A stretch of 64,000 nt of DNA from Alphaproteobacteria bacterium (GTDB lineage: Bacteria; Pseudomonadota; Alphaproteobacteria; Micavibrionales; Micavibrionaceae). Each line of letters starts with the position of its first letter. The stretch's first letter is position 1. A program made the translations under genes and the position numbers. Positions 20,318 to 49,801 of this stretch are shown here, in pieces. The stretch lies in contig JAJFGU010000022.1 in assembly GCA_021775955.1 (NCBI GenBank), positions 62,001-126,000 on the forward strand, written 5' to 3'. The notes below the pieces were generated by a model, which made no database searches, was not told the origin of the DNA, and was given only the letters and a program-made list of their open reading frames with translations.

Positions 20318-20343
20318 GTAACATTTGAGGACAGAAACGCGAA
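20318..20343 (+). promoter_or_regulatory. Candidate ECF sigma promoter of msrA
   Basis: GTAACA (20,318-20,323), 16 bases, then CGAA (20,340-20,343), located 48 bases before the msrA ATG. The same arrangement precedes the bufferin operon (25,161) and, with 15-base spacing, msrB (49,801). From memory it matches the GTAACC-N16-CGAA motif reported for Caulobacter SigF promoters. Confidence 0.6.
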
Positions 20344-20391
20344 TTCAGAACTACATATATATTTTAATCCTTTATGCGCAAGGAATCAAAG

Positions 20392-21024
20392 ATGCGGTAC
20401 ATTGCAAGCCTGTTTTTATTAATACTTTTGAGTATTTTTATTTTCCAGGCATGGGCTATTCCTGCTAAGGCTATGATAAACGGAGATGATTTGATGAATG
20501 AAAAACCTGAAGGATATCCTGTTGCTACATTAGCCGGCGGCTGTTTCTGGTGCCTAGAAAGCGAATACCGGGCGCTGGATGGTGTGCTGTTTACCCGCGT
20601 TGGCTATATGGGAGGTGAGTCTGAAACACCTTCTTATGAGCAAATATCCACCGGCAACACAGGTCATGCCGAAGTCATCGAAGTCACCTTCGATCCCAAA
20701 AAACTAAACTACCGCGATTTGCTGGAGTTTTTCCTGACCAAGGCGCATGACCCGACAACAAAGGATCGCCAGGGTGTCGATACCGGAACACAATATCGCT
20801 CGGCAATTTTTTATCATGATAAAAAACAAAAACATGACGCCGAAAAGATGGTTGCTTACGTGAATATGAACAAAATCTATTCCAACCCTATTGTAACGGA
20901 AGTGGTCCCGGCCGAAACATTCTGGGACGGCGAGGACTACCACCAGCAATATTACGAGAAGTACGAAAAGAAAAACGGCCAACCGCATATGCGGGTTTAT
21001 CTGAAACAGCAGAGCAAGCGTTAA
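20392..21024 (+). CDS. msrA: Exported peptide-methionine (S)-S-oxide reductase
   Basis: Repairs the S-epimer of methionine sulfoxide in proteins. An N-terminal signal or anchor segment ([20 protein letters not shown]) directs it to the envelope; the MsrA domain follows with the catalytic GGCFWCLE motif, [20 protein letters not shown] and THGQ-equivalent [12 protein letters not shown]. The ATG at 20,392 follows AAGGA at good spacing; an ATG at 20,374 lacks one. The gene converges on ileS with a 4-bp overlap. The matching exported MsrB is encoded 29 kb away and shares the same promoter pattern. Confidence 0.94.
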
Positions 21025-24000
21025 GCGGCTTTCTTGTGATGCGCCACTGCTTCGGTGCAGCGGTTGCACAAATGGCCTGACTTTTCACTAACTTCCGGCA
21101 GCACCTTCCAGCAACGCAAACATTTTTCGCCGTCGGCTTTTTTAATAGTGACCGAAGGTACGCCGTCTTTGATTTCAATTTGTGAGGTGATGCAGATATC
21201 GGCCATGTCACCGGCAAGCGATTTCACGGAGGCGCTATCTGTCGTGACCACCGGCAGAGCCTCGAGGGAAGAGCCGAGTTCCTTGCTTGCCCGCAATGGC
21301 TCAATCGCTTCCAAAACACTCTTACGGGTTTTTTCAACTTCATTCCATTTCGTTGCCAGCTCATCATTTTGCCATTCCTTTGGCACCTCCGGGAAGCTGC
21401 GCAGATGCACACTTTCGGCGTCTTCAAAAACTCCTTCGGGGCGCTGCGCCCACGCTTCCTCCGCTGTGAAACACAATATCGGTGCCAACCATGTGCTGAG
21501 GGCCTTAAAAATTTCCGCCATCACGGTGCGCGTGGCACGACGCTCAAAACTATCAGAGCGGTCGCAATAAAGACGGTCCTTGCGGATATCGAAATAAAAC
21601 GCTGACAGGTCTTCGTTACAAAAATCATGCAGCGCTTTGGCCAGTTTTAAAAATTCGTAATTTTTTATGTGCTCGCGCACGTCCCGATCCATTTCATACA
21701 AGCGGTGCAGGACAAGTTGCTCAAGTTCGGGGAGCGCTTTCAACTCTTTCAAGTCAACGGATTCGGATTCGGTAAATCCATCCAGCGCACCCAAAAGAAA
21801 ACGCAGCGTATTGCGAATGCGGCGATACAGATCGGCGGTTTGCTTCAGCGAGTCCTTGCCGATGCGAATGTCTTCGGCAAAATCCGATGTCATCGTCCAC
21901 AGACGTAAGATATCGGCACCGTATTGCTCCATCATCTTCAGCGGATCAACAACATTGCCCGCCGATTTGGACATTTTATAACCCTTCTCATCCAGCACAA
22001 AGCCATGGGTCAGCACGGTTTTATACGGAGCTTGCTCACGCGTGCCGCAGCTTTCAAGCAATGAAGAATGGAACCAGCCGCGATGCTGATCCGAGCCTTC
22101 GAGATATAAATCGGCTTTATCAACACCTTCGTATACAGGCCATGTTTTTGTATCACCAACAACAAACGCATGGGTCGAGCCGGATTCAAACCAGACATCA
22201 ACAATGTCAAAAACTTGATCAAAATCTTCGGCCTTGTAATCATTGCCCAGAAAATCCTGCGCCGGACGCGACCACCAGCTATCGGACCCTTCCTCTTCGA
22301 AGATGTCACCAATGCGGTTCAAAACATTTTCATCCGTGAGCGTTTCACCGCTTTCCTTGTTCACAAAAAGAGCAATCGGCACACCCCAGGCGCGCTGACG
22401 CGAGATGCACCAATCGGGACGCTGCTCGATCATTGCACGAATTCGAGATTGTCCTTTAGGTGGCACCCACCTAGTAGCTTGAATTCCTCCTAAAGATTTA
22501 TCTCTTAAAGTAGGATATTTTTTACATTCGACTAACAGGTCATAAATATAAGATTGAGTTTCCGATGAGATTGTTTCTTTCCAATCATCAACTACGCCGA
22601 AAACAAGGTTAAGAACATCTTCTTGATTCTCAATATCTGGGGCGTTTTCATGAAAAAGGCAACTTAAAGCGGCCTGGCCAATACTTGACAATCTATGCGA
22701 CTTATTAAAGTCAGAATAACCTTCTTTCTCTATTAAAATATTAGCTATTCTTTCTGTTATAGAGTCCCCCATTTTAATAAACCATTGCGGCGTCGTGCGG
22801 AAAATCACCGGCGCGCCGGAGCGCCAGCTATGCGGATATTCGTGGCGCAAAGAGCCTTTGGCCAGCAACGCCCCCGCTTCATCCAGTGCTTTGAGAACAG
22901 CAAAATTACCATCACCCATTTTACCCTCTTGCGTATAAACCTCGAGGCCCGCAAAGAGCGGAACATGGTTACGGAATTTTCCGTCATCGGCCACGTTATC
23001 GGTGATTTCAATGTCATTGGCCTGACCGAGATAAAAGTCGTCCTGTCCATGGCCGGGAGCTATATGCACGAAACCGGTTCCGGCCTCTTCTGTGACAAAA
23101 TCACCTTCCAGTGCCGGCACGTCGAAATCATAACCCTGCCCGTGCAGAGGATGATGACAGATCATACCCTCAAATAAACCGTCACCATATTCATCACTAC
23201 CGACCGGATTAACTATGCCCCAATCCTTTATTTTTTGCCACTCTGCAATTTTAGATTTTTCCTTTAAATCTTGAGCTAGTTGTTCAGCCACTAATATTCG
23301 TTCACCAACCTTTGCACGACTATCGGGTTCTAGCTCCGTCACCTTATAAAGAGAATATTTAATACTCCCAAAAGCAACAGCCCTATTGCTTGGTAAGGTC
23401 CAAGGCGTGGTTGTCCAGATTACTACGCTGGCTCCTTCTAAATCTGAATCATTAGGGCATTTCACAATCGGAAACCGCACCCACACCGTAATCGATTTGT
23501 GCTCTTTATATTCCACTTCCGCTTCGGCGAGCGCGGTTTTTTCTACCGTCGACCACATCACCGGTTTGACACCTTTATAAAGACCGCCATTTGACGCGAA
23601 TTTATGAATCTCGCGCACGATTTTTCCTTCGGCGCGGTTGGTCATGGTGAGATACGGATTTTTCCAGTCACCGGAAATGCCCAGGCGCTGAAATTCTTCT
23701 GACTGGATATCAACCCACTCACCGGCAAATTTGCGGCACTCATCACGAAATTTAAGTGGCTCGACCTCATCCTTGTCCTTACCGTCCTTGCGGTATTTTT
23801 CCTCGATCTTCCATTCGATCGGCAGACCGTGACAATCCCAGCCCGGGATATAGGGCGTGTCATAGCCCAGCATCGAATAGGATTTCACCACCACATCTTT
23901 GAGGATTTTATTAACCGCATGGCCCATATGAATATGGCCGTTGGCGTAAGGCGGGCCGTCATGCAGCACCCATTTTTCTCGACCTTCAGAGTTTTCACGG

Positions 24001-24140
24001 ATTTTGGCGTATAAATCCATCTCCTGCCATTTGGCCAGAATTTCAGGCTCTTTTTGCGGCAGACCGCCACGCATAGGAAACTCCGTTTTCGGCAGGAAAA
24101 CGGTATCGCGGTATTTGTCGTTTTTGTTATCTGAGCTCAT
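21021..24140 (-). CDS. ileS: Isoleucine--tRNA ligase
   Basis: Class Ia aminoacyl-tRNA synthetase. The HIGH motif is in [16 protein letters not shown], the editing domain includes [16 protein letters not shown] and [14 protein letters not shown], the SISRQR region is [15 protein letters not shown], and [12 protein letters not shown] is the KMSKS loop. The C-terminus carries a zinc finger ([10 protein letters not shown] ... CNRC). At 1039 residues it is long because about 80 residues are inserted between QWFIKMGD and [13 protein letters not shown], where E. coli IleS has about 20. That insertion (DNA about 22,440-22,780), and a second stretch at about 23,215-23,460, use markedly AT-richer codons than the rest. 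It probably forms an operon with ribF, 34 bases upstream. Confidence 0.97.
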
Positions 24141-49074: not shown

Positions 49075-49242
49075 ATGGCTGAGAAAGCAAAAGACAACAA
49101 CAACATGATTATTATGGCAGCGGTTGCTGGCGCTGTGATTATTCTGGGCGTGGGCGGCTATATGTATCAAAAACAACAAAGCACTAAAACGGTGAGTGTT
49201 GAAATGGGCGGAAAATCACTTAGCGCGACATTCAGCGAGTAG
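49075..49242 (+). CDS. Small single-pass membrane protein (55 aa)
   Basis: An open frame too short for most gene finders: MAEKAKDNNNMIIMAAVAGA then VIILGVGGYMYQKQQSTKTV, ending SVEMGGKSLSATFSE. It encodes a charged start, one hydrophobic helix (about residues 11-30) and a polar tail. A good ribosome-binding site, GAGGTGAAGC, precedes the ATG. It ends one base before the stop of msrB, facing it, and is divergent from sdhC. No family recognised; the N-terminal-anchor layout suggests a small accessory membrane protein. Confidence 0.7.
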   Translation: MAEKAKDNNNMIIMAAVAGAVIILGVGGYMYQKQQSTKTVSVEMGGKSLSATFSE

Positions 49243-49243
49243 A

Positions 49244-49747
49244 TTAAGCCTCTGCCGGTTTAAAAACCATGGCGATGCCATTAATGCAGTGGCGTTTGCC
49301 AGTCGGTTTTGGCCCGTCATCAAAGATATGGCCAAGATGGGAACCGCAATTGGCGCAGTGCTCTTCCGTACGGGCATAAATCAGTTTGCGATCAACGCTG
49401 ATACCAATCGCCTTGTCGCTGATTGGTTGCCAGTAAGAAGGCCAGCCGGTGCCACTATCGAATTTATGTTCCGATGAAAATAGCTCCCAGTCACAACCTT
49501 TACAATGAAACACGCCTTTACGTTTTTCATTGTTGAGCGGTGACGTGCCGGAGCGCTCTGTTCCCGCTTCGCGCATCACATGATACGCCTCGGGCTCAAG
49601 CTTTTCCTTCCATTCCGCATCGTTCAACATGAATGCAAACTCTTTTGATGATTTCTTTTGATCAAACAATCCCATAGCGCCCACCTTTCTAATCGAAACA
49701 AGAGCCGTAAACCCTAATAATCCCAATATAAAATATCGTCTATTCAT
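49244..49747 (-). CDS. msrB: Exported peptide-methionine (R)-S-oxide reductase
   Basis: Reduces the R-epimer of methionine sulfoxide in proteins. The N-terminus MNRRYFILGLLGFTALVSI looks like a signal with a twin-arginine (NRRYF), so export by the Tat or Sec route is likely. The MsrB domain has two zinc CxxC pairs (CKGCDWELF and CANCGSHLGHIF), FDSGTGWPSYW and the ending GKRHCINGIAMVF, with the resolving/catalytic Cys in RHCIN. The ATG at 49,747 has a strong GGAGGAGA upstream; an in-frame start at 49,765 would lie before that site. Confidence 0.94.
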   Translation of the reverse strand: MNRRYFILGLLGFTALVSIRKVGAMGLFDQKKSSKEFAFMLNDAEWKEKLEPEAYHVMREAGTERSGTSPLNNEKRKGVFHCKGCDWELFSSEHKFDSGTGWPSYWQPISDKAIGISVDRKLIYARTEEHCANCGSHLGHIFDDGPKPTGKRHCINGIAMVFKPAEA

Positions 49748-49776
49748 TCTCTCCTCCAGATACACCTATAGTATAA

Positions 49777-49801
49777 TTCGTTTTGAAGGAAAATTGGTTA
49801 C
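49777..49801 (-). promoter_or_regulatory. Candidate ECF sigma promoter of msrB
   Basis: Reading leftward: GTAACC (49,801-49,796), 15 bases, CGAA (49,780-49,777), ending 29 bases before the msrB ATG. The -35 element equals the Caulobacter SigF consensus as I recall it; the spacing is one base shorter than at the msrA and bufferin sites. Confidence 0.55.

Follow-up and report, generated by a model that had tools for sequence, protein, structure and literature searches.

The 64 kb window analysed here (the whole stretch of contig JAJFGU010000022.1 that was examined, belonging to the 2.32 Mb genome G000 of an alphaproteobacterium of the Micavibrionaceae) contains three sites of the type GTAAC-N16/17-CGAA, placed before the methionine sulfoxide reductase gene msrA, before a bufferin operon and before a second reductase gene, msrB. 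Judging from their position and conservation, these sites are very probably promoters of one regulon under a SigF-type sigma factor of the extracytoplasmic function (ECF) group ECF16, which would also comprise a feedback promoter embedded in the coding sequence of sigF.

Three putative promoter sites in the window

The first-pass annotation of this DNA had placed a copy of the motif before each of the three units, and all of them are indeed present, correctly oriented and correctly positioned; its spacers of N16 and N15 agree with the N17 and N16 given here, because that count began after the sixth base. Both msrA (20318-20343, +) and the bufferin operon (25161-25186, +) have GTAAC-N17-CGAA, while the site of msrB (49777-49801, -) is GTAAC-N16-CGAA. 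The base 5' of GTAAC is T at all three sites (TGTAAC), and the distance from CGAA to the start codon is 48 bases for msrA (ATG 20392), 102 for the bufferin operon (ATG 25289) and 29 for msrB (ATG 49747). The features are the following, the promoters being putative.

20317..20343, + strand: sigma-F (ECF16) type promoter of msrA (TGTAAC 20317-20322, CGAA 20340-20343, N17 after GTAAC)
20392..21024, + strand: msrA, peptide-methionine (S)-S-oxide reductase, 210 aa (Pfam PMSR 2e-59; TIGR00401 above cut-off)
25160..25186, + strand: sigma-F type promoter of the bufferin operon (TGTAAC 25160-25165, CGAA 25183-25186, N17)
25289..25612, + strand: bufferin precursor, DUF2282 (Pfam DUF2282 5e-22)
25619..26524, + strand: BufB, MNIO bufferin maturase (Pfam MbnB_TglH_ChrH 3e-102; NCBIfam NF050167 above cut-off)
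26511..27290, + strand: DUF2063 partner protein of the bufferin operon (Pfam 1.9e-17)
27316..27795, + strand: DoxX-family protein, last gene of the bufferin operon (Pfam DoxX 2e-14)
49777..49802, - strand: sigma-F type promoter of msrB (TGTAAC 49802-49797, CGAA 49780-49777, N16)
49244..49747, - strand: msrB, peptide-methionine (R)-S-oxide reductase, 167 aa (Pfam SelR 8e-46; TIGR00357 above cut-off)

The identities previously assigned to these genes are borne out by their domains (PMSR for msrA; DUF2282, MNIO, DUF2063 and DoxX for the operon; SelR for msrB), and both reductases exceed the cut-offs of curated families (TIGR00401, TIGR00357). The operon consists of four genes and, having a DUF2282 precursor, an MNIO maturase and a DUF2063 partner, it belongs to the Bufferin-1 clusters. 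MsrA and MsrB are probably exported, as suggested by a hydrophobic N-terminus in the former and by an RR pair followed by a hydrophobic segment in the latter, both judged by eye. The consensus of Caulobacter SigF, which the motif had rightly been said to resemble, is GTAACC-N16-CGAA (PMC3511200). That of the ECF16 group is (T/C)GTAAC-N17-CGAA (PMC8315932), and the target promoters described in this work have the (T/C)GTAAC-N16/17-CGAA form of ECF16.

Conservation of the sites in related genomes

The regions upstream of the same genes were analysed in a panel of 95 genomes (G000 and 94 Micavibrio-like relatives). Matches to DUF2282 were retrieved from 40 of the 95 genomes, to MsrB from 82, to MsrA from 81, to the ScsB transporter from 89 and to the SigF query from 85, many of the latter being other sigma factors. 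For each gene, the search for GTAAC-N16/17-CGAA covered the 300 bp preceding the match in the 30 best-scoring loci, so that distant genomes are under-represented; one bufferin locus had less than 200 bp upstream and one locus of the rpoH set (see below) had 33 bp.

The site was found upstream of the bufferin gene in 19 of 30 loci, of exported MsrA in 18, of the DsbD/ScsB-type transporter in 17 and of MsrB in 10. The controls yielded far less: 18 wrong spacings, scaled to two, gave 0.00-0.22 expected matches per set and base shuffles averaged 0.03-0.10, while no match at all occurred on the reverse strand or in the first 300 bp of the gene in any set. It is because of this conservation in relatives that the three sites of the window are judged genuine. 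The proposal that the three units form one regulon is likewise favoured, the motif being found again before these genes in many relatives and matches with a wrong spacer or in reverse orientation being very rare. Among the 64 upstream sites of the four sets, the spacer is N17 in 53 and N16 in 11, a T precedes GTAAC in 86% and a T follows CGAA in 75%.

Within the genus, which was compared through four genomes (G000, G001, G002 and G003), the bufferin operon adjoining msrA has the site in 4/4 cases; the other DUF2282 copies of G001 and G003 are devoid of it, whereas the msrA-adjacent copies in the same two genomes carry it. Of 47 named MsrA-like loci, 17 possess a site (N15-18), and all of them are titled Micavibrio or unclassified Alphaproteobacteria. 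No site was found at the Asticcacaulis MsrA loci L329 and L330, nor was GTAAC-N16/17-CGAA found in four Rhizobium plasmid stretches (L355, L356, L362 and L363).

The SigF/NrsF pair

The first-pass annotation had stated that the sigma factor is not encoded in the window. This is correct: a SigF/NrsF pair is located on another contig of G000 (C19:292290-293592), where the only NrsF gene of the genome lies directly 3' of an ECF sigma gene. The sigma factor has Sigma70_r2 and Sigma70_r4_2 above cut-off in a 213-aa frame (187 aa from the chosen ATG), that is, regions 2 and 4 only, as in ECF factors. Its partner matches Pfam NrsF (the NrsF/DUF1109 anti-sigma family) at 3e-19 and scores 28.6 against a cut-off of 300 in the NCBIfam NrsF equivalog model, and is therefore a divergent member. 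Two sensor cysteines are invariant in 30 of 30 NrsF proteins encoded beside SigF, and correspond to C127 and C177 in G000.

NrsF was detected in 53 of the 95 genomes, G000 included. The ScsB site is associated with its presence (16 of 21 NrsF-positive versus 1 of 9 NrsF-negative loci, Fisher P 0.0016). Evidence independent of the motif comes from gene neighbourhood, since in G009 sigF, nrsF, msrB and msrA follow one another on the same strand (L346, C23:77892-80226), and in six other genomes (G043, G072, G074, G083, G090 and G094) sigF/nrsF adjoin a DUF2282 gene. A Caulobacter-like autoregulated promoter upstream of sigF was expected, and it was not found in G000 or in 29 of the 30 loci scanned over 300 bp, the site being present in 1/30; more distant loci had none either (0/20 within 350 bp and 0/3 more within 400 bp). 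Such a promoter has been reported for the ECF16 systems studied so far, although it does not define the group.

A site inside sigF

The coding region of sigF itself contains GTAAC-N18-CGAAT in 30 of 30 loci (L211-L240). In G000 the feature is:

L034:7209-7236, - strand (C19:293208-293235): intragenic site in sigF, GTAAC-N18-CGAAT

A T precedes this GTAAC in 97% of the 30 loci, and in most of them the site falls in the stretch encoding V-T-x5-G-E. Its conservation extends to codon choice. The valine codon of the site is GTA in 30/30, compared with 47 of 305 (15%) for the other valines of these sigF genes; the codon preceding GAA has C as its third base in 30/30, whether it encodes Gly, Ser or Thr; and the codon after GAA begins with T in 30/30, whether it encodes Leu, Tyr or Trp. 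When 73 scored columns of sigF are ranked by codon bias, measured as the deviation from pooled codon usage, four columns of the motif are among the top six: Val120 (rank 1), Gly127 (rank 2), Glu128 (rank 5) and Thr121 (rank 6). Synonymous shuffles within each gene produced an N16-18 site in a mean of 1.4 of the 30 genes, with a maximum of 6 in 500 runs.

In the 30 loci, 172-293 nt separate the end of the internal motif from the start of nrsF. The open reading frame (ORF) that follows nrsF in G000 has the opposite orientation, and therefore an internal transcript would serve nrsF alone. The best reading is that the internal site is a sigma-F promoter driving nrsF, i.e., a dedicated negative feedback. 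A broader proposal, which we regard as rather probable, is that sigF contains a promoter of the SigF type that raises the anti-sigma and not the sigma factor, so that the usual positive autoregulation would give way to feedback of a purely negative kind; it would be maintained family-wide by selection at synonymous sites, and apparently arose a second time, at another position, in other lineages.

This second origin is suggested by plasmid-borne systems. In 14 named plasmid stretches, an ORF occupies the sigF position in 12; B. contaminans has none, and the ORF found there in Ancylobacter is no sigma factor. An internal GTAAC-N17-CGAAT is present in two of the 12 sigF ORFs, those of Paraburkholderia fungorum and Burkholderia glumae, which both have the order sigF-nrsF-bufferin; of the two, P. 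fungorum was aligned, and its site proves to be several codons 5' of the position used in Micavibrio. Where the bufferin operon is annotated as divergent (P. phenoliruptrix, B. pyrrocinia and N. hamburgensis), the operon is preceded by sites and sigF contains none; C. necator N-1 and P. sp. PGU19, which are unannotated, look similar. In the Ancylobacter plasmid, nrsF has no neighbouring sigma gene in the stretch and is preceded, at a distance of about 33 nt, by GTAAC-N17-CGAA (L365:2427-2452), in the gap that separates it from the previous gene; this is one example of nrsF under a sigma-F-type site.

Further probable members of the regulon in the genus

A putative promoter of the sigma-F type is found before msrA1, scsB, rpoH and a DUF3179 gene in all four genomes of the genus; in three of the four it also stands before msrA2 (with N18), a scsC-like gene and an alpha/beta hydrolase gene, and in two before genes with a VTT domain. 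The gene starts used here, and in the gene placement reported below, were chosen heuristically. The G000 ScsB contains DsbD_N, DsbD_TM and Thioredoxin_7 domains and its downstream neighbour encodes a redoxin, while the ScsC-like protein contains ScsC_N (6.5e-11) and DSBA; both are named by domain, ScsB being below the cut-off of the NCBIfam DsbD model. The PMSR, DUF3179 and VTT families of other G000 targets were confirmed by domain as well. The N18 version of the promoter before the second MsrA gene (L043, G000 C6:21911-21938), whose product is probably exported too, recurs in G002 and G003. A match within scsB, before the redoxin gene (L017), falls in a coding region and was left out of the promoter count. 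A methyltransferase-like gene (named by eye; L009, L255) has a sigma-F-type site in G000 and G002.

The G000 RpoH is a sigma-32 above cut-off in NF005693 and slightly below it in TIGR02392. An exact N16-18 site precedes rpoH in 11 of 30 loci (10 of 22 NrsF-positive and 1 of 8 NrsF-negative; L079, L367-L396), compared with two matches over 23 other spacings of N5-30 and none on reversal. Seven further rpoH loci, all NrsF-positive, have near-consensus forms (GTTAAC or GTAAT for GTAAC), which are weaker evidence, as the relaxed -35 forms were chosen after viewing the sequences. These promoters suggest a cascade from SigF to sigma-32.

Motif frequency and alternative explanations

A whole-genome scan with the motif had been proposed by the first-pass annotation, to see if hits would be concentrated upstream of stress genes and of a SigF/NrsF pair. 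The pair does exist in the genome; an enrichment of the short motif over chance does not, and it was dropped as evidence, GTAAC-N16-17-CGAA having 26 matches genome-wide against about 23 by extrapolation (from window shuffles with two spacings, N17-18, mean 0.63 per 64 kb) and 84 for the reversed control. The bare motif being no commoner than chance, the case therefore rests on position and conservation. In the window, GTAAC-N14..19-CGAA has seven matches versus 1.8 expected, a number reached in 1 of 100 shuffles. With a T added, GTAAC-N-CGAAT has 10 of its 56 genome matches over spacings 4-34 at spacers 16-17, where the 27 spacings outside 15-18 predict 2.8 (Poisson P 7e-4), and GTAAC-N16-18-CGAAT has 15 matches (Poisson P 4e-5); the reversed control of this extended pattern has 130. 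According to a heuristic gene caller, 9 of the 10 GTAAC-N16-17-CGAAT matches precede a gene and do not lie within one. Among G001, G002 and G003, GTAAC-N16..18-CGAAT exceeds its reversed control only in G001 (22 vs 6).

Several observations, besides the near-chance number of short matches just given, weigh against a common sigma-F regulon or its internal promoter. Four of the seven window matches are other than the three promoter sites, and the extended pattern shows no excess in G002 (15 vs 16) and G003 (10 vs 10). The exact site is absent from 11 of 30 bufferin, 12 of 30 MsrA, 20 of 30 MsrB and 13 of 30 ScsB loci, and several other matches preceding genes in G000 have no counterpart elsewhere in the genus. 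Association with NrsF does not reach significance for bufferin (Fisher 0.86), MsrA (0.27), MsrB (0.12) or the exact rpoH site (0.11), and of 32 loci in genomes where NrsF was not detected, nine carry the site. As regards sigF, the column P values of codon bias ignore shared ancestry, and among 23 more distant full SigF loci the internal site is present in only nine (seven N18, two N17) and absent from 14; this set leaves aside G067 as well as partial copies (G033, G001 C34), and one further partial locus was viewed. Synonymous shuffles of the first 20 distant loci gave a mean of 0.7 and a maximum of 4. In addition, the msrA homologues of Caulobacter are not sigma-F dependent (PMC3511200).

Some NrsF-negative assemblies are incomplete; in G020, a SigF-like match (E 9e-20) begins 21 bases from a contig end. 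Genome G038 (L106, L155 and L193), listed as 100% complete, has three sigma-F-type promoters with no detected NrsF or close SigF; an assembly gap or another sigma factor might be involved.

Two further window matches were rejected as promoters: 7219-7244 is within a 484-codon frame, and 58621-58646 overlaps a short palindrome (by eye). Short palindromic repeats of the CGTCATCCC type, also recognized by eye, recur in the genome (window 58621-58646; L034 around 7880-8000) and can mimic motif matches.

The alternative that deserves most attention accepts the regulon and denies that the internal sigF site is the promoter of nrsF: the site might pause or bind the polymerase, or yield a short transcript encoding region 4 only. 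The length of the leader that an nrsF transcript starting there would have, together with an in-frame start codon downstream of the motif and inside sigF, speaks for it, whereas nrsF is the sole full gene that the transcript would serve in G000, and two betaproteobacterial plasmids with the order sigF-nrsF-bufferin have an internal motif of their own, one of them at another position; on balance, we consider this alternative possible, if rather unlikely. That the conserved codons merely reflect a constraint on protein or RNA, with no promoter, is improbable. V-T and G-E are conserved residues of the SigF family, yet any valine codon would serve where GTA is invariably used, the C before GAA and the T after it are kept even where the residue differs, the shuffles hardly ever recreate the site, and its two halves stand in promoter-like order at a fixed N18 spacing.

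A last explanation, to which we attach slightly less probability still, is that the three window sites are coincidental or are read by another sigma factor. It would draw on the 26 genome matches of a short motif, on the sites found in genomes lacking NrsF and on a second ECF-sized sigma gene of G000 (C2:6939-7406); it is opposed by the agreement of the window sites with the published ECF16 consensus, by their conservation against the controls and by the adjacency of sigF/nrsF to msrB-msrA or to bufferin genes in relatives. The preferred reading is that of one sigma-F regulon with an internal feedback promoter.

Proposed mechanism and significance

According to this reading, NrsF would hold SigF at the membrane in the resting state, and copper, oxidants or hypochlorite (signals that we infer from Caulobacter, Bradyrhizobium and Brucella, copper from the first) might act through its two conserved cysteines, freeing SigF and directing RNA polymerase to TGTAAC-N16..18-CGAA(T). 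The bufferin would then bind surplus copper, and exported MsrA (two copies) and MsrB would reduce oxidized methionine in the envelope, while the ScsB/DsbD-type transporter, its redoxin neighbour and the ScsC-like protein may carry reducing power outward; ScsB might supply the electrons to the exported Msr enzymes, as the authors of the Bradyrhizobium study proposed for theirs (PMC3420878). Through rpoH, the response would extend to damaged cytoplasmic proteins. SigF would not activate its own gene from upstream; once active, it would produce nrsF mRNA from the internal promoter, between the parts of sigF encoding sigma regions 2 and 4, and the response is predicted to be self-limiting, not self-amplifying.

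ECF16 control of bufferin-type operons (PMC3511200) and of Msr genes with a DsbD-type protein (PMC3420878) is already known. The merged bufferin/MsrA/MsrB/Scs regulon, the inclusion of rpoH and the intragenic promoter are apparently new: in the open-licence literature, no report was found that places bufferins and MsrA/MsrB under the control of the same sigma factor, that describes an intragenic promoter serving the anti-sigma of an ECF16 system, or in which a sigma gene contains, for its anti-sigma, a promoter of the type read by the sigma factor itself. Two arms known separately, the copper-binding bufferins of Caulobacter and the exported methionine repair with electron supply of Bradyrhizobium, would thus be joined in one conserved regulon, and, with rpoH included, the repair of the envelope and the general response to protein damage would both be governed by a single envelope sensor. 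The intragenic promoter would represent a clear case of regulatory DNA written into the coding sequence of the regulator itself.

Comparison with known ECF16 systems

The system resembles SigF/NrsF of Caulobacter crescentus in its promoter consensus, in the sigma/anti-sigma pair with two key cysteines (C131/C181 in Caulobacter, PMC3511200) and in the bufferin-type operons, which are the main targets there. Copper induces bufferins, MsrPQ, sigF and nrsF in Caulobacter, and a sigF::Tn5 mutant is copper-sensitive (PMC8224329). The Msr arm of Caulobacter is, however, MsrPQ, and its sigF has an upstream SigF-type promoter, whereas here the motif is found with MsrA, MsrB, ScsB and rpoH and, in the case of sigF, inside the gene. 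The msrA homologues of Caulobacter being independent of sigma-F, the Msr arm described here resembles EcfF of Bradyrhizobium rather than Caulobacter.

EcfF, whose partner OsrA has the key cysteines C129/C179, controls three methionine sulfoxide reductase genes together with a DsbD-type membrane protein (PMC3420878), as is proposed here. It differs in that ecfF-osrA is autoregulated from an upstream promoter, that spacing and -10 are slightly different, and that the target table viewed names no bufferin, several of its entries being hypothetical. BcrS/AbcS of Brucella melitensis, also ECF16, shares the consensus, targets a methionine-rich peptide and a putative MsrPQ-type system and responds to hypochlorite; it differs in its targets, and its upstream autoregulated bcrS promoter was mapped by 5'-RACE. 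Genes for a sigma factor and NrsF are known from Buf1 and not from Buf2 clusters (PMC12452194); unlike in those Buf1 clusters, sigF/nrsF are here on a separate contig and the bufferin operon is one target among several. Intragenic promoters of sigma genes have a precedent in Caulobacter, where a promoter for sigV lies inside a neighbouring gene.

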